From contig NZ_JAHXYZ010000001.1 of NCBI RefSeq assembly GCF_019969685.1, positions 930,001 to 994,000 on the forward strand: a stretch of 64,000 bases of DNA, in the 5' to 3' direction. Made by a program: the position numbers and the translations under genes. Origin of the DNA: Microbacterium sp. EST19A. Lineage in GTDB: Bacteria > Actinomycetota > Actinomycetes > Actinomycetales > Microbacteriaceae. Of the stretch, positions 20,576 through 36,559 are shown in pieces. How positions within the stretch are numbered: the first letter of the stretch is position 1; each line of letters begins with the position of its first letter. The notes under the pieces were generated by a model, which was not told the DNA's origin, searched no databases, and saw only the letters and a list, made by a program, of their open reading frames with translations.

Positions 20576-21934
20576 ATGTCGATACGCGAGTCGATAGACA
20601 GCGCACCTCTGAGCAGATATCAGATGCTCGTCATCTCCATCTGCCTCCTCATCGTCCTCATCGAGGGCTACGACCTCCTGCTGATGGCGTTCTCCGCCTC
20701 GTCCGTCGCGGCGGAGTGGTCGCTCAACGGAGCCCAGATCGGCATCCTGCTCAGCAGCGTCGGCGTCGGCCTGGTTCTCGGGTCGGCGTTCCTCGCGCCT
20801 CTCGCCGATCGGATCGGCCGTCGGCCGATGACGCTGATCGGACTCGGGATCATCATCGCGTCGATGGCCATCTCGGCGGCGACGATCAGCATGCCGCAGC
20901 TGGCGGTCGCCCGGTTCGTCACCGGCATCGGCGTCGGCGGGCTCGTGGCCGGTCTTCCCGTGGTCATCTCGGAGTTCTCCTCCCGGCGACGGCGCGCCAC
21001 CATGATCGCGATCGGCACCGCCGGCCTCCCGATCGGCGGCGTGGTCGGAGGCTTCGTCGCCGCGATCGTGCTGTCGACCCTCGGCTGGCGCGCGAGCTTC
21101 CTGGTGGGAGCCGCCCTCACGATCGTGGCGTTCGTGCTGGTGCTGTTCGCCCTGCCCGAGTCGATCGACTTCCTCGTGTCGAAGCGTCCGAAGAACGCCG
21201 TCGAGACGATCAACCGCACTCTGAAGCGGATGAACCTCGCCCCGATCACCGAGCTGCCGGCCGTCAGGGAACGCCCGAAGAACGCGATCAGGACGGCGAT
21301 CTTCACAGGGCGGAACGGCGTACGCTCCGCCCTGCTCGGCTTCGCCTTCTTCGTGATGATGGCGGCCTTCTACTTCGCGAACGGCTGGACCCCGCGCCTG
21401 CTCGAGCAGGCCGGCGGCTCCGCGGCGCAGGGCATCAGCGCCGGCATCCTGCTGAATCTCGGCGGAGCGGCGGCGGCACTCCTGTTCGGGGTCTTCGCCA
21501 TCTTCATCAAGAACCGCCTGCTGACGATCATCTCGTTCGCCGGCGCCGCAGCGGCGTTCCTCACCATGGGACTCGCATTCGGCAGCTTCGCACTCACGCT
21601 GACGCTGGCGCTCGCGGTCGGCGCGCTGATCCAGGCCTGCGCCACCGGTCTGTTCACACTCGCGCCGGAGTGCTACCCCGCGGAGGCCCGCACGACCGGA
21701 GTCGGGTGGGCCGTGAGCCTCGGCCGCATCGGTGCGATCATCTCGCCCATCCTCGCGGGCGTCCTGATCGACCGCGGCTGGACCGCCCCGTCGCTGTACA
21801 TGCTGTTCGCCCTGCCGCTCGTGCTCGGCGGCATCGCGATCGTCGCCCTGCGACTGCGGCCGCGCGAAGAGGCGCCAGCGGATGCCGGTGCAGCCGTCTC
21901 GGCGGAGGCGACCTCGTCCGCCGTCCGCGCCTGA
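20576..21934 (+). CDS. MFS transporter, aromatic acid:proton symporter (AAHS) type
   Basis: 452-residue, 12-span major facilitator. The first helix carries the GYDLLLMAF pattern, close to the GxDG region of BenK/PcaK-type aromatic acid carriers. The cytoplasmic loop after helix 2 reads LADRIGRRP, and the second half has a long loop after helix 6. The ATG at 20576 is chosen because GGAAAGG precedes it at good spacing; the open frame starting upstream with TTG has none. It probably imports the ring substrate of the island that follows. A very strong terminator follows the stop. Confidence 0.85.
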   Translation: MSIRESIDSAPLSRYQMLVISICLLIVLIEGYDLLLMAFSASSVAAEWSLNGAQIGILLSSVGVGLVLGSAFLAPLADRIGRRPMTLIGLGIIIASMAISAATISMPQLAVARFVTGIGVGGLVAGLPVVISEFSSRRRRATMIAIGTAGLPIGGVVGGFVAAIVLSTLGWRASFLVGAALTIVAFVLVLFALPESIDFLVSKRPKNAVETINRTLKRMNLAPITELPAVRERPKNAIRTAIFTGRNGVRSALLGFAFFVMMAAFYFANGWTPRLLEQAGGSAAQGISAGILLNLGGAAAALLFGVFAIFIKNRLLTIISFAGAAAAFLTMGLAFGSFALTLTLALAVGALIQACATGLFTLAPECYPAEARTTGVGWAVSLGRIGAIISPILAGVLIDRGWTAPSLYMLFALPLVLGGIAIVALRLRPREEAPADAGAAVSAEATSSAVRA

Positions 21935-21953
21935 CCTGCACCACCGACAGCTG

Positions 21954-21994
21954 CGAAGAAGCCCCGCGCATCCGAGATGCGCGGGGCTTCTTCG
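21954..21994. terminator. Very strong bidirectional terminator
   Basis: A perfect 19-bp stem with the triloop CGA separates the converging transporter and FAH-family genes. TTCTTCG at the right arm gives a partial T-rich end. Confidence 0.9.
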
Positions 21995-22006
21995 TGCCAG
22001 GTGGGT

Positions 22007-22867
22007 TCAGGCGGTCAGGCGCTGCGTGATGCGGCCGAGGCCCTCGATCTCGGTCACGAGGGTCTCCCCCGCCACGAGATACCGGTTGGGCTTCATGCCC
22101 GCCCCGACGCCGGGAGGCGTCCCCGTGAAGATGACGTCTCCGGGGAGCAGCTCCACCGTCTCGGACAGCCGGCTCACGAGCTCGGCGACCGGGAAGATCA
22201 GCTGCGCCGTCGAGCCGTCCTGCACCCGCGTCTCGGTGCCGTCCGCCCCGATGATGGTCGTGGAGACCGCGAGCCGGTCGGGGTCGGCCAGCTCGTCGAC
22301 CGACACGATCGCCGGGCCGATGGGTGCGAAGCCCTCGAACGACTTGCCCATGCTGAACTGCGCGGGCGTGCCCTGCCACTGCACCGTGCGCTCGGAGAGG
22401 TCCTGCCCGACGGTGAAGCCGGCGATCCGCTCCCACGCCTCGGCGATCGGGATGCTGCGCCCCCCGCGACCGATGACGACGACGAGCTCGGCCTCCCAGT
22501 CCACTGTGTCTCCGGGGAGCCGCACCGAGATGTCGGGGCCGGCGATCGATGAGGCGAACTTCGTGAACACGACCGGGTGCTCCGGGATCGGAAGTCCTGC
22601 CTCCGCCGCATGATCGGCGTAGTTCAGTCCGACGCCGATGACCTGCCTCGGACGCGGCGACGGGGCGCCCAGGTCAGCCGAGGCGAACGCGGCTGTACCC
22701 TCGGCCGTCGCGACGTCGACGGCATCCGCCCACGCCGTGAACTCCGCCCAGCGATCGAACACGGCGGCGGGATCAGCGCCGAAGGCTCCGGCGCTGGCGG
22801 TCTCGACATCGAGCGCGCGCTCGCCCTCGACGAGGACGAGCCGACCGGCGAGGTTCGCGATGCGCAT
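22007..22867 (-). CDS. Fumarylacetoacetate hydrolase (FAH) family protein
   Basis: 286 residues. FAH-fold enzymes hydrolyse, decarboxylate or isomerise beta-diketo acids formed after aromatic ring cleavage. The metal-binding core is present: GVGLNYADHAAEAG, VDWEAELVVVIG (paired Glu), FTVGQDLSER (Asp), KSFEGFAPIGP and FTGTPPGVG. The N-terminal about 60 residues are a small extra domain common to this class. It is the last gene after the VOC dioxygenase on the minus strand, with only 3 bp between them. It likely acts on the ring-cleavage product; the exact reaction is unassigned. Confidence 0.88.
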   Translation of the reverse strand: MRIANLAGRLVLVEGERALDVETASAGAFGADPAAVFDRWAEFTAWADAVDVATAEGTAAFASADLGAPSPRPRQVIGVGLNYADHAAEAGLPIPEHPVVFTKFASSIAGPDISVRLPGDTVDWEAELVVVIGRGGRSIPIAEAWERIAGFTVGQDLSERTVQWQGTPAQFSMGKSFEGFAPIGPAIVSVDELADPDRLAVSTTIIGADGTETRVQDGSTAQLIFPVAELVSRLSETVELLPGDVIFTGTPPGVGAGMKPNRYLVAGETLVTEIEGLGRITQRLTA

Positions 22868-22870
22868 CGG

Positions 22871-23482
22871 TCACCACACCTCCGGCAGGAAGATGTCTTC
22901 CGGGATCACATCGGGCAGATACTCGCCCGCGCGGGTGCGCTCGTGGATCTCCTGGAACGACAGTCCTGCCTCACGAGCCGCGACGAGCTTCTCCGAGTCG
23001 AAGAAGGTGCCGATCGGGTTCTCGGCGAACTCCTTCGCGTTGGCGATCCACTCGCTGGAATCCGCCCAGTCGCCGAAGCCGTCGACCTGGATCTCAACGC
23101 CGTTGCCGTCGGGGTCCTGGTAGTAGACCGACATCGTGATGCCGTGGTCGAGCTGCAGGAACGGCAGGATGCCGTGATCGCGCAGCCGGATGTAGTTGTT
23201 CATCCACATGTCGAACGTCGAGAACTCGAACGCGGTGTGGTGGATGCCGGTCTCGTGCCCCTTGTCGGTCGGGTGCTTGAGTCCAGGAGGGGACAGCAGG
23301 GCGATGCGGTGGTTGGCGTCGTCGTTCGTCAGCCAGGATGCCTCGTCGCTCTGGAACACGGGGCGCAGTCCGCAGACGAGTCCGTACCAGTTCACCATCT
23401 CGTCCATCCGGAGGGTGGTGAACGTGGTGTGGTGCAGCTTCGGCGGGTTCGCGGGCCAGTGGGTGGCCTTGTTGTCCGGCAT
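22871..23482 (-). CDS. VOC-family extradiol-dioxygenase-like protein (copy 1)
   Basis: 203 residues with a vicinal-oxygen-chelate fold (about 14-135) and a helical C-terminal extension. Candidate metal ligands are His17 or His18, His81 or His82, and Glu130 (in GNGVEIQ), the 2-His-1-Glu set of catechol-2,3-dioxygenase-type enzymes. GAAGGAGAG before the ATG at 23482 fixes the start. A paralogue at 35951-36559 has the same residues at the same positions. It is probably a ring-cleaving dioxygenase, but a related VOC lyase or isomerase is not excluded. Confidence 0.8.
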   Translation of the reverse strand: MPDNKATHWPANPPKLHHTTFTTLRMDEMVNWYGLVCGLRPVFQSDEASWLTNDDANHRIALLSPPGLKHPTDKGHETGIHHTAFEFSTFDMWMNNYIRLRDHGILPFLQLDHGITMSVYYQDPDGNGVEIQVDGFGDWADSSEWIANAKEFAENPIGTFFDSEKLVAAREAGLSFQEIHERTRAGEYLPDVIPEDIFLPEVW

Positions 23483-23510
23483 TTCTCTCTCCTTCGAGAT
23501 CGGGGGTGGT

Positions 23511-25856
23511 TCAGAGGGTCGGTGAGACGAGGTCGAGTGCGGCGGCGATCTGCGCATCGGGGCCGATGCCGTGCAGGCGATACATGTCCTGCAACGTGCC
23601 GGTCTGGCCGAACTCGGTGACGCCGAGGTTCACGCTGGGGACCCCGCGCACGGCAGCGAGGAAGGCGAGGGAGTGCGGATGCCCGTCGAGCACGGTCACC
23701 ATCGGCACCGCCCGATCGGCCGGCAAGACCTGATCGAGGATCCATGCCTCGCCGTCCCCTCTGCCGCTGCGTGCGCGCGTGGCGCGGTACAGCCGGTCGG
23801 GGCTCGTCACGCAGATGACGTCGGCGGCGATCCCGAGCTGTGCCAGGCGGTCAGCCGCGGCGAGGACCTCGGGCATCAGCGCGCCCATGCCCACGAGCGC
23901 GACGTCCGGGTGCTCGGCGCGACGCAGCACGTACGCCCCGGCCGTGACCTGACGGCGACGGCGCTCGCGCGCGGCCGGGTCGGCGGGAACATCGGCCAGC
24001 CCCTGGTCGATCACCCGGGAGCTGAGACGGAAGTAGCTCGACGAGCCGTCGGGTCGCCCCAGCCGCGACATCGCGTCGAGCATGCACCATTCGAAGTCCT
24101 GCGCGAACGCCGGTTCGAAGGCGACGACGCCCGGCTGCTCGATGCCGATGGACGGCGTGATGATCGACTGGTGCGCGCCGCCCTCGGCCGCGAGCGTCAC
24201 GCCGGAGGGAGTGCCGACGAGGATCGACTGTCCGCCCGCGTAGACCCCGAACGACCACGGCTCGAGCGCGCGGGTGACGAACGGATCGTAGAGCGTGCCG
24301 ATCGGCAGCAGCGGTTCGCCCCAGCGGCTCCAGGTGGCACCGAGTTCGCCGAGCAGGCCGACCAGGTTCACCTCGGCGATACCCAGTTCGACGTGCTGAC
24401 CCGACGGCCGCTCGTCCCAGTGCAGGATCGTCTCGGCGTCGTCGGCGAACCAGTTCTGCCGGGCGGTCGGCGACCACACCCCGACCTTGTTCACCCAGCC
24501 GCCGAGGTTGGTACTCGAGGCGACGTCCGGCGCCACGGTCACGACCCGTCGCGCGGCATCCGGGGCGAACCTGCCGAGATCGAGCAGCAGCCTGCCGAGG
24601 CCCTGCTGCGTGGAGCTGTGCCCGCGGATGTCTCGTCCGAAGTCCTCGGGAACAGCGGGCGGAGCGGTCGGATGCACCGGCTCCCGGCCGAGACGCTCCG
24701 CGACGCGGGCACAGAGCGCGGCCTCCGCGGAATCCCCGGGGAACGACCGCCAGCGATCGTCGGTGCTCTCGCCGAGCTGCTCGGCGACCCAGGCAAACTG
24801 CTCGGGCTTGAGCAGGTTCGAGTGGTTCTGCGGATGCCCGGCGCTGGGCAGTCCGTTGCCCTTGATCGTGTAGGCGAAGATCACCGTCGGACGGGAGTCG
24901 TCGATCTGCCCGAAGGCGTCGATCAGGCTGGGGATGTCGTGACCGGCGAGACCGCGGATGACCCGCAGCACGTCGTCGTCGCTGAGGTCGGTGAGGAGCG
25001 CGGAGACGTTCTCCGCGCCGGCGCCGGTGCCGGGAAGCCGCACGCGCAGTTGTTCCGCCGAGCAGCGCAGCAGCCGCTGATACTCCGGGTTCGACATCTC
25101 GTCGATCCGCTGCTTCAGGTGCTCGCCACCGGGTCGCGCGAAGAGCTCGGTGAGGAACGACCCGTACTTGAGGGTGATCACCTGCCAGCCCGCCGCCGCG
25201 AACATGGACTGCAGCCGGGTCGCCGAGATGTTCGGCACGACACGATCGAGAGACTGCCGGTTGAAGTCGACGACCCAGACGATCTCGCCGAGGTCACCCA
25301 CCATCTGGTCGAGCACGGCCTCCCACACGGCGCCCTCGTCGAGTTCGGCGTCGCCGACCAGGCTGTACTGCCGACCCCGTGGGAGAGGTGCGCCGACCGT
25401 GTCGGCCACGAAGCGGCGTGCGATTCCGCCCCAGATCGGCGCGGTGGCTCCGATGCCGACGGAACCCGTGGAGTAGTCGACCGTGTCGGGGTCCTTCGAG
25501 CGGCTCGGGTAGCTCTGCAGACCGTGGAAGCCGCGGAGAGTCTCGAGCTCCTCGGGCGCAAGCTCGCCCAGCAGGTGGTTGATCGCGTGCAGCACGGGCG
25601 ACGCGTGCGGCTTCACCGAGACCCGGTCGTCGCTCGTGAGGGCGGTGAACCACAGCGCCGTCATGATCGTCACCATCGAGGCGCTCGACGCCTGGTGCCC
25701 GCCGATCTTCAGGCCGTCCGGGTCTTTGCGGCTGCCGGCGTTCGCCGAGTCGATGATCGCGGTGGCCAGCCAGAGGACCTTCTTCTCGATCGCACGCAGA
25801 GTGTCGAGCTCGGTGGGAGCCGCACTCGCCGGTGCCGCGAGGGAGGGTGAGTTCAT
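23511..25856 (-). CDS. AceE-like thiamine-diphosphate enzyme without the E2-binding N-terminus
   Basis: 781 residues of the transketolase superfamily, closest in pattern to the homodimeric pyruvate dehydrogenase E1 (AceE): GGHQASSASM near residue 52, VKPHASPVLHA, the thiamine-diphosphate motif GDAELDEG...VDFNRQSLDRVVPN, YTIKGNGLPSAGHPQNH and a C-terminal transketolase domain. Canonical AceE proteins are near 880-920 residues and carry an N-terminal segment that docks E2. Here the conserved core starts almost at once. No E2, E3 or lipoyl protein is encoded nearby. It probably acts alone on a 2-oxo acid or ketose-like intermediate made by the neighbouring ring-cleavage enzymes. The start at 25856 follows AAGGAAG. 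Confidence 0.8.
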   Translation of the reverse strand: MNSPSLAAPASAAPTELDTLRAIEKKVLWLATAIIDSANAGSRKDPDGLKIGGHQASSASMVTIMTALWFTALTSDDRVSVKPHASPVLHAINHLLGELAPEELETLRGFHGLQSYPSRSKDPDTVDYSTGSVGIGATAPIWGGIARRFVADTVGAPLPRGRQYSLVGDAELDEGAVWEAVLDQMVGDLGEIVWVVDFNRQSLDRVVPNISATRLQSMFAAAGWQVITLKYGSFLTELFARPGGEHLKQRIDEMSNPEYQRLLRCSAEQLRVRLPGTGAGAENVSALLTDLSDDDVLRVIRGLAGHDIPSLIDAFGQIDDSRPTVIFAYTIKGNGLPSAGHPQNHSNLLKPEQFAWVAEQLGESTDDRWRSFPGDSAEAALCARVAERLGREPVHPTAPPAVPEDFGRDIRGHSSTQQGLGRLLLDLGRFAPDAARRVVTVAPDVASSTNLGGWVNKVGVWSPTARQNWFADDAETILHWDERPSGQHVELGIAEVNLVGLLGELGATWSRWGEPLLPIGTLYDPFVTRALEPWSFGVYAGGQSILVGTPSGVTLAAEGGAHQSIITPSIGIEQPGVVAFEPAFAQDFEWCMLDAMSRLGRPDGSSSYFRLSSRVIDQGLADVPADPAARERRRRQVTAGAYVLRRAEHPDVALVGMGALMPEVLAAADRLAQLGIAADVICVTSPDRLYRATRARSGRGDGEAWILDQVLPADRAVPMVTVLDGHPHSLAFLAAVRGVPSVNLGVTEFGQTGTLQDMYRLHGIGPDAQIAAALDLVSPTL

Positions 25857-25878
25857 GGTCGGACTTCCTTGTTCGATC

Positions 25879-25904
25879 GCAGGATATATCTTATACCGTA
25901 GCGA
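25879..25904. promoter_or_regulatory. GntR operator candidate, site 1
   Basis: GCAGGATATATC followed after TTATACC by GTAGCGA, in the divergent gap between the AceE-like gene and the GntR gene. All 19 outer bases recur as site 2 at 26705. The core GATATATC is palindromic and rare in such GC-rich DNA. Confidence 0.6.
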
Positions 25905-25975
25905 TTGCAGTCGTGGCGAGCAAGTGCGGGGCCCCGGGCCTGGCACCATAGGGAGAATCACCGAAGGGAGATGGC

Positions 25976-26665
25976 ATGGCCATCGAAGGGCAGTTGAGGT
26001 CGGTGGCCTCAGCCAACAGCTCCGCCGTCGACCTGGTGACGGCGGAGATCCGTCGCGCGGTGTTGACCGGATCGCTCGAGGCGGGCAAGCAGTTCTCGAT
26101 CCGGGACCTCGCCGCGCAGCTCGGCGTCAGCCACATCCCGATCCGCGAGGCGCTGCGCCGCCTCGAGTCGCAGGGGTTGATCGTCATGCGCCAGGCCCGC
26201 GCGGCCAGCGTCGCGCCGCTCAGCACCGACGACCTCGCCGCCATCTACCGCCTCCGCTACGTGATCGAGCTCCCGCTCGCCGGATCGTCGGCCGGCGCAC
26301 GCAGCGACGCCGAGATCGCCGAGCTCGACGCGCTCCTCGAACGCAGCCGCGACCTGGATCCCGACATCGCCTGGCAGGCGCACTACGACTTCCATGAGGC
26401 GCTCGTGCGCCCGGCCGCGAACGCCTGGGACGACCGCGTGCTGCACACGCTCTGGATGGCAGCGGAGCGCTACACGCACCTCGTGTTCGACCCGACGCGC
26501 ATCACCGAGGAGGAGCGCGCTCGCCGCTACGAGACCCACCGCCTCCTGCGGGATGCCGCGCTCGTGGCCGACCCCGCCGCGATGTCACAGGCTCTGCGCG
26601 ATCATCTCAATGCGAACGAGACGCGCATCCGCGAGCACATCGCGCCCCTCGAAGCGGCTCCGTAG
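25976..26665 (+). CDS. GntR-family regulator with FCD domain (island regulator)
   Basis: 229 residues. The GntR winged helix (about 18-85) has the recognition segment VSHIPIREALRRLESQGLI. The FCD helical domain (about 90-220) has metal or acid-binding His and Asp/Asn residues (HYDFHEALVRPAAN, LRDHLNANETRIREH). It lies between the divergent AceE-like gene and the NmrA operon. An identical pair of palindromic motifs lies in both flanking promoters, so it probably controls both. The effector is likely a carboxylate intermediate of the pathway. A GAAGGGAG ribosome site precedes the ATG. Confidence 0.88.
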   Translation: MAIEGQLRSVASANSSAVDLVTAEIRRAVLTGSLEAGKQFSIRDLAAQLGVSHIPIREALRRLESQGLIVMRQARAASVAPLSTDDLAAIYRLRYVIELPLAGSSAGARSDAEIAELDALLERSRDLDPDIAWQAHYDFHEALVRPAANAWDDRVLHTLWMAAERYTHLVFDPTRITEEERARRYETHRLLRDAALVADPAAMSQALRDHLNANETRIREHIAPLEAAP

Positions 26666-26704
26666 AACCGGGGCTTGTGCGCTGTCGGCATCCGCGCTTA
26701 GCAT

Positions 26705-26723: not shown

Positions 26724-26739
26724 GTAGCGAGGAGCGTCA

Positions 26740-27612
26740 ATGCCTGCCCTGATCCTGGGCGCCACGGGGAACATCGGACCCCATGTCGTCGACGAGCTCC
26801 GCCGGCTCGGCGACACTCCCCGCGTCCTCGTGAGAGACGGCCAGCGAGCGCGCGCGCTCTTCGGGCCCGACGTCGAGGTCGTCGCCGGCGATGCCACCGA
26901 CTCCGACGCGATCCGCGCGGCGGCCGAGGGGATGGACAGCGTGTTCCTGCTCTCTCCGCACAGCTTCACGATGGCCGACCTCCAGCTCGGCGTGATCCGC
27001 GCACTGCGCCGCACCGGCATCCGCATCATCAAGCTCTCGGGCACCGCCTCGGCGATCACCCCCGATGGCCCGCTCGCCTGCCGCGAGCACTGGGAGATCG
27101 AGCAGGTCCTCGAGGGGAGCGGCCAGCCCTTCGTGATCCTCCGGCCCAACTCCTTCCTCCAGGTGCTCGTGGGCAAGCTGATGCTTCCGGGCATCCACTC
27201 CACCGGGAAGATCATCAACCCGCTCGGCACCGCGGGCATCAGCATGATCGACGCGCGCGACGTCGGGGCCGTCGCGGCGCGTGTGCTGACCAGCCACGCC
27301 TGGGACGGTCAGACGCTGTCCCTCACCGGACCGCGACCCGTCACCTATGCGGAGATCGCCGAGGCGGTCTCCGCACGGCGCGGCGTTCCGGTCGCCGTCG
27401 CCGACGTCACACTCGATCAGGTGCACGCGTCGCTGACCGCGAACGGAATGGCTCCGTGGGAGGCCGAGCACTTCCGCGAGATGTACGAACTCTTCGCTGC
27501 GGGCGCCTCCGCCTTCGTCACCGACACGGTCCGCGAGGTCACCGGGAACGAGCCCCGCACGATCGAGGCGTATCTCGACGAGACGCTGGCCGCAGAGCCG
27601 GTGACCGCATGA
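26740..27612 (+). CDS. NmrA-like NAD(P)-binding protein
   Basis: 290 residues with an atypical short-chain dehydrogenase fold. The N-terminal dinucleotide-binding loop is GATGNIG (residues 7-13). The region continues with RVLVRD, VVAGDATD and the SGTAS strand typical of NmrA and NAD(P)H-dependent azoreductase or quinone-reductase relatives. The classical YxxxK pair is not evident, as in the NmrA group. It could reduce a quinoid or unsaturated intermediate or sense redox state. It is the first gene of a four-gene operon and overlaps the HIT-like gene by 4 bp. Confidence 0.8.
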   Translation: MPALILGATGNIGPHVVDELRRLGDTPRVLVRDGQRARALFGPDVEVVAGDATDSDAIRAAAEGMDSVFLLSPHSFTMADLQLGVIRALRRTGIRIIKLSGTASAITPDGPLACREHWEIEQVLEGSGQPFVILRPNSFLQVLVGKLMLPGIHSTGKIINPLGTAGISMIDARDVGAVAARVLTSHAWDGQTLSLTGPRPVTYAEIAEAVSARRGVPVAVADVTLDQVHASLTANGMAPWEAEHFREMYELFAAGASAFVTDTVREVTGNEPRTIEAYLDETLAAEPVTA

Positions 27613-28022
27613 GCGCCTGCCTTCCCTGCGACCTCGAAGAAGCGGATGCCGCAGCACAGGTCTATCGCGACGACGACTGGTCGCTCGATGTCGCGGCCCC
27701 GTACGACGCCCCCGGCTGGTACATCCTCCGGCTGCGCCGTCACGCCGAGGGGTGGGAAGGCCTCTCCCCCGACGAGGCCGCCGGCTTCGGTGTCATCTCG
27801 CAGCGCGTCGTCGCCGCCATCCGTGCGGTCACCGGTGCCCCGACCGTCTACTTCCTGAGCTTCGGCGAGAACTACTCGCACTTCCACTTCCTCGTGATCG
27901 CGCGCGAACCGGATCTGGCGCCCGAGCACCGTGGCGCCGGCATCCTGGCGCTCCGCGAGGAACGCCGCGATCCGGCCGCATCGCTCGCCCTCGCGGTCGA
28001 CGTGCGCGCCACCCTGACCTGA
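27609..28022 (+). CDS. HIT-like protein with degenerate histidine triad
   Basis: 137 residues. An N-terminal CLPC pair resembles the Cys pair of HIT hydrolases, and the C-terminal half has YSHFHFLVI where HIT enzymes carry HxHxHxx. Aligned on the second and third His, the first is replaced by Tyr, so nucleotidyl hydrolase or transferase activity is uncertain. The ATG at 27609 overlaps the NmrA-like stop by 4 bp; the longer upstream frame is a shadow. A HIT-type protein between a reductase and a hydrolase in a catabolic operon is unusual. Confidence 0.7.
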   Translation: MSACLPCDLEEADAAAQVYRDDDWSLDVAAPYDAPGWYILRLRRHAEGWEGLSPDEAAGFGVISQRVVAAIRAVTGAPTVYFLSFGENYSHFHFLVIAREPDLAPEHRGAGILALREERRDPAASLALAVDVRATLT

Positions 28023-28051
28023 ACCCTCACCACCCACCCGAAAGGACGATG

Positions 28052-28912: not shown

Positions 28913-29685
28913 GGCTCAGGGGGAACACGGTCCTCATCACGGGCGGCGGCTCGGGGATCGGGCGGGCGCTGGCCGAGGCCTTCCTCGCCCGGGGCAGCAC
29001 CGTCATCGCCGCCGGCCACCGGGCCGACCAGCTGGCGGAGGCGGCCGCGGCGAACCCCGGACTCGACACGGAACTCGTGGACGTGTCGGATGCCGCGAGC
29101 ATCACGGCCGCGGCATCCGCCGTGCTCGCGCGGCATCCGTCCCTCAACGTCCTGATCAACTGCGCCGGTGTCATGATCGACGACGACGTGAGCGCCGTCG
29201 TCGCCGAAGAGGACCTGCTCATGGTGGTCTCGACCAACCTGCTCGGGCCGATCCGGATGGTCTCCGCGTTCGTCGAGCACCTGCGCGCGACGCCGGATGC
29301 CGTGATCGTCAACGTGACGTCGATGCTCGGCTATGCGCCGCTCGCGCGCTCCGCCCTCTACTCGGCGACCAAGGCGGCCATGCACTCGTACACGCTCTCA
29401 CTGCGGTACCGGCTCGACGGCACGGACACCGAGGTGGTCGAGATAGCCCCGCCGCTCACACGCACGGCGCTGCAGCCGGTCAACCTCACCGATCCCCGGT
29501 CGATGCCGCTCGAGGACTTCCTCGCCGAGACGCTGCAGGCTCTGGAGTCGGGTGACCCCGAGGCCTACGTCGCCCGCGCCCGCGAGCGCCGAGACGCGCA
29601 GCGCACCGACGACATCGGGGCGACCACCAGGCTCAACGACCTGATGAGCGCCCCGCTGCCGGAGGACCCGAGTCAGACGACCTGA
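28909..29685 (+). CDS. Short-chain dehydrogenase/reductase (DltE-like)
   Basis: 258 residues of classical SDR type: cofactor loop TGGGSGIG (about 12-19), NCAG strand (LINCAG), catalytic Ser in VNVTSMLGY and the YSATK motif with Tyr and Lys. PPLTRT follows where substrate-loop residues lie. It is the last gene of the operon NmrA-HIT-hydrolase-SDR. Its end overlaps by 13 bp the end of the oppositely oriented amidohydrolase gene, leaving no room for a terminator between them. Confidence 0.88.
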
Positions 29686-30818
29686 GCACCGCCGATCCAC
29701 ACGCCGCGGATCTGACGGACCGCGGTGATGTCGGCCGTCGGATCGCCGTCGATGAGCACGAGGTCGGCGCGGAGTCCCGGTGCCACCCGCCCGCGGTCGT
29801 GCAGGCCGAAGATCCTCGCGGCGTGCGAGGTGGCACCGTCGAGCGCTTCCGCGGGAGAGAGACCGGCGGCGACGAGCCGACGCAGTTCGTCGTGCAGACC
29901 CTCGCCGAACGGCACCTGGTACGGCGCGCCATGGTCGTCGTTCGCGTCGGTCCCGACGAGCACGGTGCTGCCGGCATCGCGGAAGGCGCGCACGGTGGTC
30001 TCGGCGAAGCGGTACTTCATCCGAGCAGCGGGCACGAGCGCGCCGACGACCTTCATCATGAGCTTCCCGCCGATCGTCTCGACGACGCCGTGCATCATGC
30101 CGAGCGTGGGGATGATGACGGTGCCGTGGGCCGTGATGAGCGCCTTCGTCTCCCCGTCGAGCTCGCCGCCGAGGGCCGCATGCGTGACGACGTCGACGCC
30201 GGCGTCGAGCGCGGATCGCAGCGTGTGGGCGCTCACGACATGCGCGATCGTGAGCAGATCCGCGTCATGCGCGGCGACGACGATCGCGGCGATCGTCTCG
30301 GTCGGCAGCGGCTTCGCTCCGGGGAACTTCGGATCCTCGATGAGGATCTTGATGTAGTCGGAGCCCTCGGACTTGCGCTCGGTGACGAATCGCTTCGCGT
30401 CGCCCGGACCGTCGACACCGCTCTTCGGCGGCATCCCCATCTTCACGATGAAGTTCGACCCCGGGGCGCTCGCCGAATGCCCCGAGCTCTTGAGCGTGGG
30501 CAGGCCGGGGAGGCCCTGCAGGCCGTGCAGCACATCGAGGTCGGGCGAGCCCAGGTCGATCAGCGTGGTGACGCCGACGGCCCTCGCCGCTTCGAGATGC
30601 TCCCTCGTGCGCGCGTGCACGTGCGTGTCGATCAGGCCGGGGAGGAGGGCGCCGCCGTCGGCGTCGATGATCTTCGCCCCCTCGGTCGACGTGCCCTCGC
30701 TGACGACGCCGTCGTCGATCACGACCGTGGTCGGCGCGCCGAGCGCCCCTCGATCGAACACGCGGACGTTCGTGAAGGCGGTGCGCGTGGGCTGCGGCGA
30801 GGTGGCGTCTGCGGGCAT
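29673..30818 (-). CDS. Metal-dependent amidohydrolase
   Basis: 381 residues of the imidazolonepropionase/prolidase-like amidohydrolase branch. LIDTHVHA gives the first metal-binding Hx[10 protein letters not shown] carries the lysine that is often carboxylated. IAHVVSAHT and VTHAALGG supply further His, and VGTDAND the catalytic Asp. A beta-sandwich encloses the barrel (FTNVRVFD at the start, [12 protein letters not shown] near the end). No signal peptide is seen. AGGA precedes the ATG at 30818. It probably opens a cyclic amide, lactam or ester in the island's pathway. Confidence 0.85.
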
Positions 30819-30892
30819 CTCATCATCCTGTTCTCGCCGCGTCGTTGCGGCGTGGTCGGTCGTGCGGATTCGGTCCTCGGGGTGTCGAGTCG

Positions 30893-32374
30893 TCAGAAGG
30901 GGTACCGGCCGGGGCCGCTGCTCATCGTGGTCAGCCGCACCTCGGTGAAGTCCTCGACGGCGTAGTGCCCGGAGCGACCCCATCCGCTGTCCTTGACACC
31001 GCCGACGGGCAGCGCGGCCTCGCTCGCCATGGTCGGGGCGTTGATATGCACGATGCCCGCATCGAACCGCGCGGCCAGATCGAGCCCTCGACCGCGGTCG
31101 GCGGTCATGATCGACGCGCTGAGGCCGTACGGAGTCGCCTGCGCGTCGCGCATCGCCGTGTCGGCGTCATCGAACGCCTCGATCACGAGCAGCGGCCCGA
31201 AGGTCTCATCGGCACCGGTGCTGCAGATCGCGTCCTTCGGGACGTGCGTGAGGATCGTCGGGGCGTACACCCGCCCTTCGTGGCGGCCGCCCGTCGCCAG
31301 CGTCGCGCCGCGGTCGAGGGCGTCCTGCACGCGCGCCTGGATCTGCTCGACCGCCGCATCCGTGATCAACGGACCGATGATCACTGCGGGATCGACGGGA
31401 TCGCCGAGCGCGAGGCTCTCGACGCGCGCGACGAGTCGCTCCACGAATTCGTCGTGCAGCGACCGGTCGACGTAGACCTTGCGGGCGTTCATGCACACCT
31501 GCCCCTGGTGCAGGAAGGCGCCGAAGGTGACGGCCTTGACGGATTCCTCGAGGTCGGCGTCGTCGAGGATCAGCACCGGGTTGAAACCGCCGAGCTCGAG
31601 CACCATCCGCTTGAGCGCGCGTCCGGCGCGCTCTCCCAGGATCCGTGCGGTCTTGTCGGAGCCGGTGAAGTTGATGCAGCGCACGTCCGGGCTCTCGAAG
31701 AACACTTCGGCGACGGATGCCGCGTCACCCGGGGCGTTCGTGACGACGTTGAACGACCCCGGCGGGAAGCCGGCTTCGGCGAGGATCTCGGCGTGGATGA
31801 GTCCGGCCGACATCGGAGCCAGCTCGGACGGCTTGATGACCGTGGTGTTGCCGAACGCCAGGGGCAGGAGGAACGTGCGCCAGGCCAGATAGAAGGCGCC
31901 GTTCCACGGCGTGAAGCCTGCGACGACACCGAGCGGCTTGCGGGTGACGAACGCGGTCCGTCCCGGCACATCGCTGCGCAGCACGTCACCCGCGGGCAGG
32001 TAGCCCCACCCCGCCGCCTGACGGAGCATCGCCGACGACAGTCTGATCTGGAACGACGAGAACGCCCGGCTCGCGCCGCCCTCGATCGCCATCAGTCGCA
32101 CGAGCTCGTCGTGCCGCCGGTCGACGATGTCTGCGGCGGCGAGGAACAGCCGCTGCCGCTCGCCCGGCGCCATGCCCGCCCAGGCGGGGAAGGCCCGTGC
32201 CGCCGCATCCACCGCCGTCTGCATGTCGGATGCCGACCCGGCCGCCGACTCGGCGACGAGGGAGTCGTCGAGCGGGTTGCGCACATCGAACGTCGGTCCG
32301 GATGCGGTCGTCCAGGCGCCGTCGATGAAGTGGGTCGTCACGGAGTGCCGGCCTGCGTCGGGGATGATCGTCAT
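30893..32374 (-). CDS. NAD(P)-dependent aldehyde dehydrogenase
   Basis: 493 residues. The full set of ALDH landmarks is present: FTPWNGAFY with Asn158, LELGGFNP with Glu260, and GQVCMN with the catalytic Cys294. The C-terminus, including FGPLLVIEAF and GIVHIN, also matches. AGGAG lies 8 bp before the ATG. It should oxidise a semialdehyde produced by ring cleavage, as HpcC- or XylG-type enzymes do. It is upstream of the amidohydrolase and downstream of the decarboxylase on the minus strand, so it is part of one catabolic operon. Confidence 0.92.
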   Translation of the reverse strand: MTIIPDAGRHSVTTHFIDGAWTTASGPTFDVRNPLDDSLVAESAAGSASDMQTAVDAAARAFPAWAGMAPGERQRLFLAAADIVDRRHDELVRLMAIEGGASRAFSSFQIRLSSAMLRQAAGWGYLPAGDVLRSDVPGRTAFVTRKPLGVVAGFTPWNGAFYLAWRTFLLPLAFGNTTVIKPSELAPMSAGLIHAEILAEAGFPPGSFNVVTNAPGDAASVAEVFFESPDVRCINFTGSDKTARILGERAGRALKRMVLELGGFNPVLILDDADLEESVKAVTFGAFLHQGQVCMNARKVYVDRSLHDEFVERLVARVESLALGDPVDPAVIIGPLITDAAVEQIQARVQDALDRGATLATGGRHEGRVYAPTILTHVPKDAICSTGADETFGPLLVIEAFDDADTAMRDAQATPYGLSASIMTADRGRGLDLAARFDAGIVHINAPTMASEAALPVGGVKDSGWGRSGHYAVEDFTEVRLTTMSSGPGRYPF

Positions 32375-32417
32375 TTCTGTGCTCCTGGATGGACTCTGTC
32401 AGGGTGGATCTATCGCG

Positions 32418-33371
32418 TCACAGACGCAGCAGGGCTTCGGCGTTGCCGTGGGCGATCTTCTCCCGGTCGGCCGCGCCGACGGGTGCCGAGGCCAGGTGCG
32501 CCGTCGCCTGCGCACTGCTGCCGAAGGGGTGGTCGACGGAGAACATCACGCGGTCGACGCCGAACGCGGCGAGCGCACACAGCAGCGGGGCGTCGTAGTT
32601 GTACCCGGAGGTCGTGAGGAAGAGATTGCGCCGCAGCGTCTCGGCCACCGTCAGCGTCTGGCCGGTGACGACCGGACTGAGCATCGCCTCGATCCGCTCG
32701 AGGTGGAAGGGCAGCCCTTCACCCATGTGGCCCACGATGATCTTCAGGTCGGGCAGCTCCTCGAAGACACCGGCCACGACCATTCGCAGCACATGCATCC
32801 CGCACTCGGAGTGCCAGCCCCAGCCGGACGTGGCGAGGCAGGCGGCAGCGGCATCCGGAAGTCCGGAGAAGTACGCCTCCTGCACGACGGCGGGCGGCGG
32901 AGCCGGATGCAGATAGATCGGCACGTCGAGTCGCGCGGCGGCGGCGAGGATCGGGCGCACCGACGGGTGGTCGAGGAAGACCCCGCGGGTCTGGCCGTGG
33001 ATCATCGCGCCGACGAACCCGAGCTCCTCCACACAGCGGACGAGCTCGTCGACGGCGGCGTCGGGTTCGGTCATCGGCAGGCTCGCGAAGGCGCGGAACC
33101 GGTCGGGGTGCGCCGCCACCGCGGCGGCAAGGCGGTCGTTGAGCTCGGCGCTCCAGCGCACCGACTCGGACGGAGCGAGATCCTGCACGAAGTAGCCGAG
33201 GGCGGAGAGCACCTGCACGTCGATCCCGGCATCGTCCATGATCTTCAGACGATCGGCTCCGAGGTCGTCGAGCTGCTCCGCACGCGCACCCGCTCTCGAC
33301 CCCAGGTCGATGCCGGCGGATGCGACGATGTCGTGCGGGAGCATGTGCTCCTCGATGGCGATGACCTTCAT
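32418..33371 (-). CDS. Gamma-resorcylate-decarboxylase-type amidohydrolase
   Basis: 317 residues of amidohydrolase family 2 (ACMSD-like). Residues matching the metal site of gamma-resorcylate decarboxylase are visible: IEEH with Glu7 and His9, YLHP with His155, VGHMGE with His215 and SVDHPF with Asp280. These enzymes remove CO2 from hydroxybenzoates without oxidation, using zinc or manganese. The ATG at 33371 overlaps the hydroxylase stop by 4 bp, pairing decarboxylation with ring hydroxylation. The substrate is inferred from the family; hydration or hydrolysis in a related subgroup is possible. Confidence 0.8.
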   Translation of the reverse strand: MKVIAIEEHMLPHDIVASAGIDLGSRAGARAEQLDDLGADRLKIMDDAGIDVQVLSALGYFVQDLAPSESVRWSAELNDRLAAAVAAHPDRFRAFASLPMTEPDAAVDELVRCVEELGFVGAMIHGQTRGVFLDHPSVRPILAAAARLDVPIYLHPAPPPAVVQEAYFSGLPDAAAACLATSGWGWHSECGMHVLRMVVAGVFEELPDLKIIVGHMGEGLPFHLERIEAMLSPVVTGQTLTVAETLRRNLFLTTSGYNYDAPLLCALAAFGVDRVMFSVDHPFGSSAQATAHLASAPVGAADREKIAHGNAEALLRL

Positions 33372-34969
33372 CGGACGACGGCCTCCTGCTGAGGGGTGAG
33401 GGCGGGAGCGGGGAAACCCCGCAGGGCGGCATCGAGGACCTCCGCCGGGTCCGACGAACGGATGCCGACGTGGGCGATGTGCTGATCCGGCCGGACGAGC
33501 ACGGCTTCGGCGTCATGCGTCGCGAGATGCGCGACGGGGATGCCGCGGGCCGCGGCTTCGGCGAGCAGATCCTGCACGTCCTCCGCCCCTCCGATCGCGG
33601 TGAACCACGGCCCGAGGAGGTCGTGGATCGGGTGCCCGTCGACCATCCGATGCGGGAGCCGGTTCCCCGCCCCGACGATCGGGGTGTACTCGGCCGGCGT
33701 CGGGGCCTGCTCGCGGGATGTCGGGCCGTAGCCGTAGCCGAGCACGAGGCCCGCGCTGTAGAACTCGGGCGACTTGAGGCGCCAGATCGCCGGGCCCAGT
33801 TCCCTGCGCGCACTCTCGAAGACCTCACCGGTGGTCATCAGGAGCGGGTTGCTGAGGTCGATCGAGAGCGAGGCCATGTTCGCCGACGACAGGGCGATGG
33901 TCTGCTCCTCGACCTGCCGCCGCTCGTGGCCGTAGCTGTCGAGCAGCTCGTCCGGAGCCCAGCCGGCGCACACCGCCGCCAGCTTCCAGCCCAGGTTCAC
34001 AGCGTCCCCGACACCGGTGTTGAACCCGTGCCCTCCCCAGGGCGGGTTCTGGTGCGCGGCGTCTCCGACGATGAAGAGGCGCCCGCTGCGGTACCGATCG
34101 GCGAGGAGCGTGCGTGCGCGCCAGGGGTCGGTGGCGACGATCTCGATGTCGAGGGTCTCGTCGCCGTCGGGCACACCGATGAGCGTCCGGACGATCTCTC
34201 GCGCATGCGCCGCATCGGCGACCTCGGGAGTGCCCGTCGAGATCGCCCACCAGGTGCCGTCCTGATCGAGCGGTCCGACGACCCCGGGCGACGCGGGGTT
34301 GAGCACCCAGTAGTGGATGGAGTCCGGATGCGGGATGGCGGCGGCCAGCCGGGTGGAACGGAACGTGATGTTGACATTCGGCCGCCCGGCGGGAGCGCCT
34401 TCGTAGCGTGCTCCCATCGCTTCGCGCACGAGGCTGCGCGGGCCGTCGGCGCCCACGACCCACTGCGCCCGCAGCGTGCGGCGCTCACCGTCGACGGACT
34501 CGATCACGACCTCGGCGTGCGTCGTGCCGTCGACGACCTCGACAGCCCGCCAGCCGAACAGGAGCTCGACCTCGTCCTTCGTCGAGAGGTGGGCGCGCAG
34601 CACCTCTTCGACCAGGGGTTGCGTCACCTGCTGGGCGCGCTCCGCCGTCAGCTCGGGGGCAGCGGAGAGCCCGAGGCAGTCGTCGACGTGCGTGATCTCA
34701 CGCCCCAGTACGGTCTGCACGAATGTGACGCGCTGCGACCAGTCCGCGTGCAGCGGTGCGATCTCGCGCAGGCGGTCTGCGACGCCCCAGCGCCGCAGGT
34801 GCTCCATGGTGCGCACCGACGTGGTCTTCGCCCGCGGCCGCGAATGCTCGACGATCGTCCGCGGCTCGATCAGGGTCACGGGCACGCCGTGGAACGCGAT
34901 CTCCTCGGCCAGGGCCAGCCCCACCGGGCCACCGCCGATGATCAGGACGGGGAGGACTTCCTCAGGCAT
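33368..34969 (-). CDS. FAD-dependent aromatic hydroxylase (class A)
   Basis: 533 residues. It has the FAD dinucleotide loop IIGGGPVGLALAEE (about 9-22), the DG motif VGADGPRSLVRE near residue 175 and the GD motif IVGDAAHQNPPWGGHG near residue 300, as in phenol, resorcinol and 3-(3-hydroxyphenyl)propionate hydroxylases. A thioredoxin-like C-terminal domain follows. It would add a hydroxyl group to a phenolic ring at the cost of NAD(P)H and O2, setting up ring cleavage. It is divergent from the IclR gene across 98 bp containing the shared operator candidate. Confidence 0.92.
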   Translation of the reverse strand: MPEEVLPVLIIGGGPVGLALAEEIAFHGVPVTLIEPRTIVEHSRPRAKTTSVRTMEHLRRWGVADRLREIAPLHADWSQRVTFVQTVLGREITHVDDCLGLSAAPELTAERAQQVTQPLVEEVLRAHLSTKDEVELLFGWRAVEVVDGTTHAEVVIESVDGERRTLRAQWVVGADGPRSLVREAMGARYEGAPAGRPNVNITFRSTRLAAAIPHPDSIHYWVLNPASPGVVGPLDQDGTWWAISTGTPEVADAAHAREIVRTLIGVPDGDETLDIEIVATDPWRARTLLADRYRSGRLFIVGDAAHQNPPWGGHGFNTGVGDAVNLGWKLAAVCAGWAPDELLDSYGHERRQVEEQTIALSSANMASLSIDLSNPLLMTTGEVFESARRELGPAIWRLKSPEFYSAGLVLGYGYGPTSREQAPTPAEYTPIVGAGNRLPHRMVDGHPIHDLLGPWFTAIGGAEDVQDLLAEAAARGIPVAHLATHDAEAVLVRPDQHIAHVGIRSSDPAEVLDAALRGFPAPALTPQQEAVVR

Positions 34970-35040
34970 GTGCGCGAACTCCGGATCTGGTCGTCGTTGA
35001 CGTTCCGATCCTCCCCCGTCGCCTCCTCGCGGTTGCCGAA

Positions 35041-35056
35041 GCTTTCAATCAATGGC
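35041..35056 (-). promoter_or_regulatory. IclR operator candidate before the hydroxylase and IclR genes
   Basis: GCTTTCAATCAATGGC on the plus strand; its complement differs by one base from 20479-20494 before the transporter gene. It sits 12 bp before the IclR ATG and 72 bp before the hydroxylase ATG, fitting autoregulation plus control of the catabolic operon. Confidence 0.5.
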
Positions 35057-35067
35057 ACCATCACCCC

Positions 35068-35844
35068 ATGACGACGACACGACGCGGTGGTCGACCGCCT
35101 TCGGGAGAGCCCGTGCTCGACCGCGCCTTCCGCCTGCTCGACGCCTTCACCGATCAGGAGACGAGCCTCACCCTCACGGCGCTGAGCGAGCGCGCCGCGA
35201 TCCCGCTCAGCTCCACCTTGCGACTCGCCCAGCACCTGAGCCGTCTCGGCGCCCTCGAACGGCAGCCCGACGGCACGTTCACCGTGGGACTCCGGATGCT
35301 GGAGTACGCGGCCCTCTCCCCTCGCGGTCACGGCCTCAGAGCCATCGCTCTGCCGTACATGGAGGACCTGCACCGCGCCACACGCCAGCACGTGCAACTC
35401 GCGGTGCGCGACAACGACGAGGGGATCATCATCGAGCGGCTCTCCGCTCCCGGCGCGGGAAGAGTGCTCTACTACGTCGGCGGCAGGGTGCCCCTGCACG
35501 GGACCGGTCTCGGCGTCATCCTGCTCGCGCACGCCCGCCCGGAGTTCCAGGAGGCGTACCTGCAGCGGGAGCTGTTCCTCGAGCCCGAGCACCTCCCGAT
35601 CGTGGCGGCCGAGCTGCGGTCGCAGCTGCGGTCGGTGCGCGCGCTCGGGGTCGCGCACATGACCCGATCGCTGCCCGAGCCGGCGGCATCCGTGGGGGCT
35701 CCGGTGTTCGATCGGTCCGGTGCGTGCGTGGCGGCGCTCTCGGTCCTCGGCGCCGACGGATCACTGGACACGCGGATGCTGGAGCCGGCGGTCGTCGCGA
35801 TCGCCCGGGCCATCAGCCGCGACCTGAGCCGCAGCGGACGCTGA
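35068..35844 (+). CDS. IclR-family regulator
   Basis: 258 residues. The N-terminal winged helix (about 12-70) reads VLDRAFRLLDAFTDQE, then LSERAAIPLSSTLRLAQHL. The GAF-like effector domain (about 80-250) has HATRQHVQLAV-like and GRVPLHGTGLGVILLAH segments, with the G...A.G...LA pattern of IclR proteins. IclR regulators typically activate aromatic catabolic operons on binding the pathway acid. It is divergent from the hydroxylase operon and shares a near-identical motif with the transporter promoter 14.6 kb away. Confidence 0.9.
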   Translation: MTTTRRGGRPPSGEPVLDRAFRLLDAFTDQETSLTLTALSERAAIPLSSTLRLAQHLSRLGALERQPDGTFTVGLRMLEYAALSPRGHGLRAIALPYMEDLHRATRQHVQLAVRDNDEGIIIERLSAPGAGRVLYYVGGRVPLHGTGLGVILLAHARPEFQEAYLQRELFLEPEHLPIVAAELRSQLRSVRALGVAHMTRSLPEPAASVGAPVFDRSGACVAALSVLGADGSLDTRMLEPAVVAIARAISRDLSRSGR

Positions 35845-35950
35845 CGCTCGACTTCCGATCATTGGCAATCCGCTGGGAGGTCGGGCGGACTCGCGGGTAC
35901 ACAGGACGACAGGCGTCGCCGCTGACGCCCGAGACTCGAGGAAGAGAACC

Positions 35951-36559
35951 ATGACCGCGAACCGCGACCGCCGCCGACCGATCACCCGCCCGGTCTTCCA
36001 CCACACGACCTTCGCCACGCTGAAGCTCGACGAGATGGTGGAGTTCTACGAGGCGATCGCCGGGCTCGAGCCCGTCTACCACGGCACCGACGGGGCCTGG
36101 CTGACCAACGACGAGGCCAACCACCGCATCGCCCTGCTGGCGCTGCCCGAGCTGAAGGAGGCGGTCGACAAGGGTCACACCGTGGGCCTGCACCACACCG
36201 CGTTCGAGTACGCCGACTTCCACGCGTGGCTGGACAACTACGAGCGGCTCGTCGAGCGTGGCATCCGCCCCTTCCTCTGCCTCGACCACGGCATGACGAT
36301 GTCGATGTACTACCAGGACCCCGAGGGCAACGGCGTCGAGATCCAGTTCGACACGTTCGGCAGCTGGACGAAGTCCAAGGAATGGATGTGGGCTTCGCAG
36401 GAGTTCGGCGAGAACCCCATCGGCGAGTACTTCGATCCCGACCAGATCGTGGCCGCACGCGAATCCGGCCTCGAGTGGGACGACATCCACCGCCGCACCC
36501 GCGCCGGCCACTACATTCCCGAGGTCATCCCGCAGGTGCACCTGCCCGAGCTGTGGTGA
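35951..36559 (+). CDS. VOC-family extradiol-dioxygenase-like protein (copy 2)
   Basis: 202 residues, colinear with the copy at 22871-23482. HHTTFATLKLDEMV, LTNDEANHRIALL, HHTAFEYADF and YYQDPEGNGVEIQ recur with few changes, and the candidate ligands His17/18, His81/82 and Glu130 are at the same positions. It is transcribed with the IclR gene, 106 bp downstream of it, and has a GGAAGAG ribosome site. The two copies may act on different isomers or on successive intermediates. Its stop is 6 bp from the converging ribokinase gene. Confidence 0.8.
   Translation: MTANRDRRRPITRPVFHHTTFATLKLDEMVEFYEAIAGLEPVYHGTDGAWLTNDEANHRIALLALPELKEAVDKGHTVGLHHTAFEYADFHAWLDNYERLVERGIRPFLCLDHGMTMSMYYQDPEGNGVEIQFDTFGSWTKSKEWMWASQEFGENPIGEYFDPDQIVAARESGLEWDDIHRRTRAGHYIPEVIPQVHLPELW

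Follow-up and report, generated by a model that had tools for sequence, protein, structure and literature searches.

We analysed a 64,000-nucleotide stretch of the genome of Microbacterium sp. EST19A (contig NZ_JAHXYZ010000001.1, positions 930,001 to 994,000; the window in what follows), which carries at 20576..36559 an island of genes that may serve the degradation of an aromatic acid. The island holds 15 intact open frames in 16 kb, and its edges are the ends of the genes for an MFS transporter and for VOC2, the second of two extradiol-type dioxygenases (Table 1). Gene starts were refined, and families were assigned by Pfam and NCBIfam profile searches. Every gene family named in a preliminary description of this DNA was found in its place as an intact frame, the HIT protein being recognised by its predicted fold, and the block ends remained as they had first been drawn. 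No island protein exceeded the cut-off of any NCBIfam model listed (the best 25 or fewer for each protein); for the IclR-family regulator, the best subfamily, below cut-off, was PcaR/PcaU/PobR.

The reading frames of NmrA and HIT, of the alpha/beta hydrolase and the short-chain dehydrogenase, and of the decarboxylase and the hydroxylase overlap by 4 bases each, and a 3-base gap separates FAH from VOC1. These overlaps and the short gap suggest an organisation in three operons, with the GntR and IclR regulator genes divergent from two of them. The MFS transporter is likely to be an importer of an aromatic acid. The alpha/beta hydrolase, which gave only weak matches in the PDB, is possibly a hydrolase of an ester (depside) or of a ring-fission product.

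Table 1. Genes of the island, with positions in the window and the evidence for each family.
Gene product	Position	Strand	Evidence and remarks
MFS transporter, aromatic acid/H+ symporter-like	20576..21934	+	MFS_1; best NCBIfam TIGR00895, 322 bits (cut-off 418.55)
FAH-family hydrolase (FAH), predicted acylpyruvate hydrolase	22007..22867	-	FAA_hydrolase, 202.7 bits
VOC1, single-domain extradiol-type dioxygenase	22871..23482	-	Glyoxalase family; six XylE catalytic residues; VOC fold
AceE/transketolase-like thiamine pyrophosphate (TPP) enzyme, E1-type	23511..25856	-	Aligned to E. coli AceE, 145 bits
GntR/FCD regulator	25976..26665	+	GntR and FCD; divergent from TPP-VOC1-FAH operon
NmrA-like NAD(P)-binding protein	26740..27612	+	NmrA, 68.1 bits
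HIT-fold protein	27609..28022	+	Predicted structure; cluster-associated
Alpha/beta hydrolase (ABH)	28049..28912	+	Abhydrolase_6
Short-chain dehydrogenase (SDR)	28909..29685	+	adh_short
Metal-dependent amidohydrolase	29673..30818	-	Amidohydro_1
Aldehyde dehydrogenase (ALDH), non-acylating type by best models	30893..32374	-	Aldedh, 451 bits
Decarboxylase (DEC), gamma-resorcylate decarboxylase group	32418..33371	-	Amidohydro_2
Class A FAD aromatic hydroxylase (FAD)	33368..34969	-	FAD_binding_3, 252 bits
IclR-family regulator	35068..35844	+	IclR_C, HTH_IclR; divergent from FAD-DEC-ALDH operon
VOC2, second single-domain extradiol-type dioxygenase	35951..36559	+	Glyoxalase family; 57-58% identical to VOC1

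Recurrence of the island in Microbacteriaceae

The preliminary description had proposed looking for the gene set as a block in other genomes. We read the neighbourhoods in 13 genomes chosen for having VOC1 or the hydroxylase, and nine of these, all Microbacteriaceae and from six genera, carry most of the set as a block. Presence was counted by tblastn; gene calls based on third-position GC content (GC3) miss genes, for example the decarboxylase in G194, G230 and G481. FAH, VOC1, the TPP enzyme and the hydroxylase were found in all nine blocks, the counts for VOC1 and the hydroxylase being partly a product of how the genomes were chosen. GntR, HIT, the alpha/beta hydrolase, the amidohydrolase, ALDH and the decarboxylase were each present in eight, NmrA, MFS and IclR in five and the short-chain dehydrogenase in four. 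The count of nine for VOC2 includes matches to VOC1, and some counted matches are distant (MFS 23-24% identical in two genomes, NmrA 28% in one). Where present in these blocks, VOC1, the TPP enzyme, ALDH and the decarboxylase are 63-97% identical to those of the island. Gene order varies from block to block and content is largely kept; G243 has two FAH and two decarboxylase genes, and tblastn found neither the decarboxylase nor ALDH within the 19 kb read in G365. Since most of the genes recur in nine neighbourhoods, their clustering exceeds chance.

Four further genomes, chosen likewise, contained partial sets only. G004 and G106 have VOC and FAH but few other block genes close by, and G004 has in addition a distant hydroxylase and a decarboxylase 80 kb away; G229 has VOC, FAH, the hydroxylase and IclR, and G577 the hydroxylase and FAH. 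Plasmid regions of Mycolicibacterium, Priestia and Agrobacterium contained no comparable gene set by annotation.

The genes are rare among relatives. In counts that include the strain itself, 6 of 198 genomes from the genus carry VOC1, 2 of 98 relatives have the decarboxylase (E <= 1e-60) and, across the family, 9 of 398 genomes have the hydroxylase (E <= 1e-120). The gene nearest to the island on its left was found in 8 of 57 other genomes searched, and four of its carriers (G005, G022, G011 and G006) had no island genes within ~19 kb of it, apart from distant FAH-like matches (32-43%) in two. The blocks of G194 and G230 had no flanking gene of the window in common in the stretches read. The block is therefore accessory, and is placed at different genomic sites.

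Predicted ring cleavage and the probable fate of its product

We aligned 16 VOC sequences with XylE, the catechol 2,3-dioxygenase of plasmid pWW0. XylE residues H153, H199, H214, H246, Y255 and E265 were matched in all 16 sequences, except for H153 in one truncated row, and VOC1 and VOC2 both match all six; the H246 column is flanked by gaps and its placement is less certain. We take H153, H214 and E265 to be metal ligands and H199, H246 and Y255 to be second-sphere residues. The structure predicted for VOC1 has the VOC fold, with a mean predicted local distance difference test (pLDDT) score of 82.5. A functional assignment from the fold was tried and given up, as FosA, glyoxalases and 9u42 tied in the structure comparison. 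The intradiol dioxygenase domain PF00775 had no match in the strain's own genome, in a search that finds matches in 4 of 14 genomes, and an ortho-route through hydroxyquinol 1,2-dioxygenase was rejected on this ground. The residues kept in both VOC proteins and the absence of the intradiol domain support extradiol-type ring cleavage by the island, as the meta-cleavage route of the preliminary description had it.

The gamma-resorcylate (tsd) pathway of Rhodococcus jostii RHA1 reportedly uses a decarboxylase, a ring hydroxylase and hydroxyquinol 1,2-dioxygenase. The island resembles it in its Amidohydro_2 decarboxylase of gamma-resorcylate type and its ring hydroxylase, but lies in a genome that lacks the intradiol domain, and so has no hydroxyquinol 1,2-dioxygenase, and has VOC and FAH proteins instead. 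Maleylacetate reductase, which was searched for by family in the island, is not among the 15 genes. The predicted order of import, decarboxylation, hydroxylation, extradiol cleavage and FAH, distinct from that of tsd, is supported.

By sequence, the solved structure closest to FAH is 6v77, a 'putative HpcE' (302.8 bits). Its FAA_hydrolase domain keeps the metal-binding E-x-E and a lid His/Glu pair, roles that we assume for these residues (motifs NYADHAAE and WEAELVVVIG). The hydroxylase scored 443.7 bits with PRK06126 (cut-off 445), and its gene lies between FAH and VOC1 in G230, G511, G446 and G365, so that hydroxylation, ring cleavage and hydrolysis appear to form a single module.

Genes that could activate acetoacetate accompany several of the sister clusters. 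Both subunits of a 3-oxoacid CoA-transferase (scoA and scoB) are encoded in the blocks of G511, G365 and G315, those of G511 scoring above NCBIfam subfamily cut-offs, and scoB lies at the edge of the stretch read in G446; a Streptomyces cluster (L008) also has both. The nine genomes contain 14 above-cut-off copies of scoB, and the probability that at least four fall within the 40-kb block stretch is ~8e-6 by random placement, a post hoc calculation. In G229, an acetoacetate-CoA ligase (686.9 bits; TIGR01217 equivalog cut-off 520.9) lies near VOC, FAH and the hydroxylase, and a thiolase above the PRK07851 cut-off lies near VOC and FAH; G106 has an acetoacetate-CoA ligase homologue (39%) and a thiolase near the same pair. 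On three Rhodococcus plasmids (L085, L087 and L141), VOC, FAH and an FAD monooxygenase have an acetoacetate-CoA ligase next to them by annotation, joined in L141 by a thiolase. Our strain has a scoA-scoB-thiolase operon (C7) on a contig other than that of the island, and no close acetoacetate-CoA ligase in its genome (29-32% matches only).

These acetoacetate-activating genes in sister clusters make it likely that the ring-fission product is hydrolysed to pyruvate and acetoacetate, which points to a methylated ring and not to plain gamma-resorcylate. By pathway logic, FAH would release these two products if it acted as an acylpyruvate hydrolase on 2,4-dihydroxy-6-oxoheptadienoate, and this compound would arise by extradiol cleavage of a methylated 1,2,4-trihydroxybenzene such as 2,3,5-trihydroxytoluene. 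The latter corresponds to orcinol hydroxylated at an ortho position, and orcinol in turn to orsellinate without its carboxyl group. The place first given to FAH, after extradiol cleavage, is kept, while the reading of the substrate shifts to a methylated ring.

A Massilia plasmid (L142, 9959-14783) carries a compact run of FAD monooxygenase, FAH, VOC and aromatic acid/H+ symporter genes, perhaps a minimal form of the same route; its VOC has no match to VOC1.

Upper steps and other proteins of the cluster

Compared with solved structures, the decarboxylase scored 178.9 bits with gamma-resorcylate decarboxylase 2dvt and at most 86.4 with chains of 2-amino-3-carboxymuconate semialdehyde decarboxylase (ACMSD). 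The uncharacterised chain 3nur gave 182.4 bits; among characterised structures, the gamma-resorcylate/2,3-dihydroxybenzoate decarboxylase group scored highest. Aligned to 2dvt, the protein keeps E7, H9, H155 and D280, which we presume to bind the metal, together with H215 and an HMGEGLP motif. The type of decarboxylase named in the preliminary description is thus upheld, and we predict that the enzyme is a decarboxylase of orsellinate type. Its gene adjoins that of ALDH in all eight blocks having both and in the window; in G315 some 11 kb separate the two genes from the TPP gene, and VOC1 is more distant still. The best NCBIfam models for ALDH (HpaE, aminobutyraldehyde dehydrogenase and betaine-aldehyde dehydrogenase) were all below cut-off, the best at 325.2 bits versus 219.7 for the CoA-acylating methylmalonate semialdehyde model.

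A distantly related set lies within 35 kb on a plasmid of a lichen-derived Paraburkholderia (L139), with alpha/beta hydrolase (52% identical), VOC (38%), FAH (38%), hydroxylase (39%), two decarboxylases (41% and 38%) and ALDH (34%), and with an E1 at 27% that has its own E2. This gene set fits a lichen or fungal acid as the substrate. By annotation, VOC-FAH sets occur twice in the plasmid region (4289-39733), together with two pairs of acyl-CoA dehydrogenase and flavin reductase and several proteins of the amidohydrolase family, and the region is itself a candidate for the degradation of lichen acids.

A larger, amide- or ester-linked substrate had been read from the amidohydrolase gene of the island, but this Amidohydro_1 protein offers no real evidence for an amide linkage. 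By tblastn, its counterparts elsewhere reach no more than 37-45% identity, the family is too broad to be informative, and an amide-linked substrate was rejected.

Residues 14-715 of the thiamine enzyme align with residues 72-784 of E. coli AceE, the homodimeric pyruvate dehydrogenase E1, so that most of the sequence is covered. E495 falls at the position of AceE E571, which we take to be catalytic. Unlike AceE, the enzyme lacks the N-terminal part, has N347 at the position of H407, which was checked for lipoyl transfer (H345 is two residues away), and has no E2 (lipoyl) gene beside it among the 15 island genes by Pfam. At 80 related TPP loci, an Lrp/AsnC-type regulator lies nearby in 24 and a lipoyl E2-type protein in 7, one representative of each call having been confirmed by Pfam; a VOC1 match was present in 11 and a FAH match in 14. 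Homologues number at least 7959 of 7999 candidates scored, a figure not used as a frequency. Because its relatives adjoin Lrp/AsnC-type regulators and lipoyl E2-type subunits, the enzyme is more likely a general 2-oxoacid enzyme recruited by the island, where it is likely to consume the pyruvate released by FAH. A role in ring opening was rejected in view of the many other contexts of its relatives. The thiamine-dependent step first envisaged is thus not a special step of ring degradation. Relatives 46-48% identical occur in Chloroflexi/Dehalococcoidia-type genomes in a sugar-like setting, and a xylose-isomerase-like TIM-barrel protein (L072, L073, L076, L078 and L080) or a Gfo/Idh/MocA oxidoreductase (L073, L074 and L076) lies near a relative of the thiamine enzyme.

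The HIT-fold protein had no Pfam or NCBIfam match and 222 homologues at E <= 1e-5. Its predicted structure (mean pLDDT 86.8) gave 59 PDB matches at E <= 0.001, with HIT proteins in the top rows, so that the label given to it holds at the level of fold. CLPC and HxHFL motifs are conserved in 31 aligned sequences. The motif of the HIT family is HxHxHxx, and in all 31 the third histidine is replaced by leucine, leaving the triad incomplete. The gene was present at 4 of the 80 TPP loci, all four also with a VOC1 match. The HIT-fold protein is a member of the cluster and is associated with ring-cleavage clusters of the VOC type; we offer no mechanism for it.

Elsewhere in the window, a nucleoside uptake and cleavage set (36566-44465) follows the island directly, with a PfkB kinase, BPD permeases and an ABC ATPase, a Bmp/PnrA-like binding protein and two IU_nuc_hydro nucleoside hydrolases. 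Away from the island lie glycoside hydrolases of families 36, 95 and 2 (800-2968, 8943-11435 and 49283-51763).

Proposed route and alternative explanations

Our favoured interpretation, put forward tentatively and with somewhat less than even confidence, is that the island is a conserved accessory block that degrades a methylated resorcinol acid of orsellinate type by extradiol cleavage to pyruvate and acetoacetate. The MFS transporter would import the acid, which the alpha/beta hydrolase may release from an ester and which ALDH, whose gene is paired with that of the decarboxylase, may form from its aldehyde. The Amidohydro_2 enzyme would remove CO2 from the acid to give orcinol, and the FAD hydroxylase would add a third hydroxyl group next to an existing one, giving 2,3,5-trihydroxytoluene. 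VOC1 or VOC2 would then open the ring adjacent to the carbon that bears the methyl group, giving 2,4-dihydroxy-6-oxohepta-2,4-dienoate (equivalent to 2,4,6-trioxoheptanoate), which FAH would hydrolyse to pyruvate and acetoacetate. The AceE-like enzyme would take the pyruvate, and acetoacetate would pass to acetyl-CoA through the scoA-scoB-thiolase operon elsewhere in the genome. We infer every reaction and substrate of this route from what was observed, namely the gene content, the conservation of the block, the catalytic residues of the VOC proteins, the absence of the intradiol domain and the acetoacetate genes in some sister clusters.

A number of findings weigh against this route. The island itself contains no acetoacetate-activating gene, scoB lies elsewhere in the genome for five of the nine blocks, and the 80 TPP loci include scoB once and acetoacetate-CoA ligase not at all; moreover, the 3-oxoacid CoA-transferase could serve 3-oxoadipate instead. 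The FAD monooxygenases of the Rhodococcus plasmids are distant (27% in L087, 32% in L085 and 44% in L141), and the VOC of L141 has no match to VOC1. The scores of the decarboxylase do not separate orsellinate from gamma-resorcylate or 2,3-dihydroxybenzoate, and ALDH is without a fixed place in the route. Outside the island the genome has one class III extradiol candidate of LigB type, which makes VOC1 and VOC2 the ring-cleavage candidates of the island and not necessarily of the cell. The lichen evidence is thin: a lichen origin is named in 3 of the 20 records listed out of 148, one of the three is from Hymenobacter, and in another, a lichen Frondihabitans plasmid (L140), the 31 kb read contained the decarboxylase but no other gene of the set.

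The genes could alternatively encode a plain resorcylate route, in which gamma- or beta-resorcylate would be converted through resorcinol to hydroxyquinol, the VOC enzymes would form 2,4-dihydroxy-6-oxohexadienoate, and FAH would release pyruvate and malonic semialdehyde, the latter to be oxidised by ALDH. This would account for an ALDH conserved in eight of nine blocks and agrees both with the kinship of the decarboxylase to gamma-resorcylate decarboxylases among characterised solved structures and with the annotation of a 'malonic semialdehyde reductase' in two Rhodococcus clusters (L085 and L087). However, it leaves the acetoacetate-activating genes of the sister clusters unexplained, and the low score of ALDH with the CoA-acylating model also counts against it, although a non-acylating enzyme could act; we consider it unlikely. 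The constant pairing of the decarboxylase with ALDH would also suit a decarboxylation after ring cleavage, the VOC enzymes cleaving a carboxylated ring and the two partners acting in sequence on the open-chain semialdehyde, since a decarboxylase and a dehydrogenase are likewise paired in the 2-amino-3-carboxymuconate semialdehyde route (ACMSD and its partner, aminomuconate semialdehyde dehydrogenase). The far lower scores with ACMSD, the distance of the pair from the TPP gene and VOC1 in G315, and the absence of deaminase and hydratase families from the island render this improbable.

Still less probable is a para-diol route, in which the VOC proteins would act like homogentisate or hydroquinone dioxygenase and FAH would release fumarate and acetoacetate. 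H58, at the position of XylE H199 and conserved in all 16 sequences, aligns with an asparagine in 9u42, a homogentisate dioxygenase of VOC type, the alignment being weak at that point; the 15 genes include no maleylacetoacetate isomerase, and a ring decarboxylase and a pyruvate-using E1 would have no role. A search of the open-access literature for VOC homogentisate dioxygenase was unproductive. Finally, the island might merely store together two or more unrelated small pathways (FAH-VOC1-TPP, NmrA-HIT-ABH-SDR and FAD-DEC-ALDH) with no common substrate. The variable gene order, the presence of two VOC proteins, the duplicated genes of G243 and the lack of the decarboxylase and ALDH in the stretch read in G365 could be understood in this way, but the recurrence of the set across six genera, in nine genomes that keep most of its content, and the 63-97% identities of VOC1, the TPP enzyme, ALDH and the decarboxylase make such an assemblage very unlikely.

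The chemistry of the orsellinate-type route has precedents. Biochemical work of the 1970s on Pseudomonas putida ORC reportedly followed orcinol through 2,3,5-trihydroxytoluene to 2,4,6-trioxoheptanoate, the same chemistry as proposed here up to that compound, but with acetate and acetopyruvate as the described products in place of pyruvate and acetoacetate; we found no gene set for this orcinol/resorcinol meta-pathway in the open-access literature. The lower pathway of 2,4-dinitrotoluene degradation in Burkholderia (dntD, dntG and dntE) is said to combine extradiol cleavage of a trihydroxytoluene with a FAH-family hydrolase that yields pyruvate and a semialdehyde, followed by an ALDH. It is likened to the island by description, and differs in its upper pathway and phylum. 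In Pseudomonas mandelii 7HK4, HcdA, HcdB (type I class II) and HcdC, a putative hydroxymuconic semialdehyde hydrolase, convert an acid of 2,4-dihydroxyphenyl type into 2,4-dihydroxy-6-oxononadienedioate by way of a 2,3,5-trihydroxyphenyl acid (PMC6222606). The likeness, again by description, is in an FAD hydroxylase, an extradiol dioxygenase and a hydrolase that lead from a resorcinol-type acid to a 2,4-dihydroxy-6-oxo-dienoate; hcdABC include no decarboxylase, and the substrate and phylum are different (PMC6222606).

The enzyme families of the island are ordinary, and it is their combination that is new. We found no paper in the open-access literature that assigns this gene set, or genes for resorcinol/orcinol meta-cleavage or for bacterial orsellinate degradation. 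It is conceivable, if doubtful, that the island combines the genes for orcinol meta-cleavage, a route described decades ago, with an orsellinate decarboxylase in a transferable module for lichen and fungal acids in actinobacteria, with a related set on the Paraburkholderia plasmid, and that the HIT-fold protein is a new component of ring degradation. If true, this would assign genes to a resorcinol/orcinol meta-cleavage route for which the literature searched gave none, would add single-domain VOC dioxygenases and a HIT-fold protein to the parts list of such catabolism, and would explain how lichen- and fungus-associated bacteria could feed on orsellinate-type acids. It would also narrow the substrate of a recurring, so far unassigned actinobacterial cluster to a handful of known compounds.

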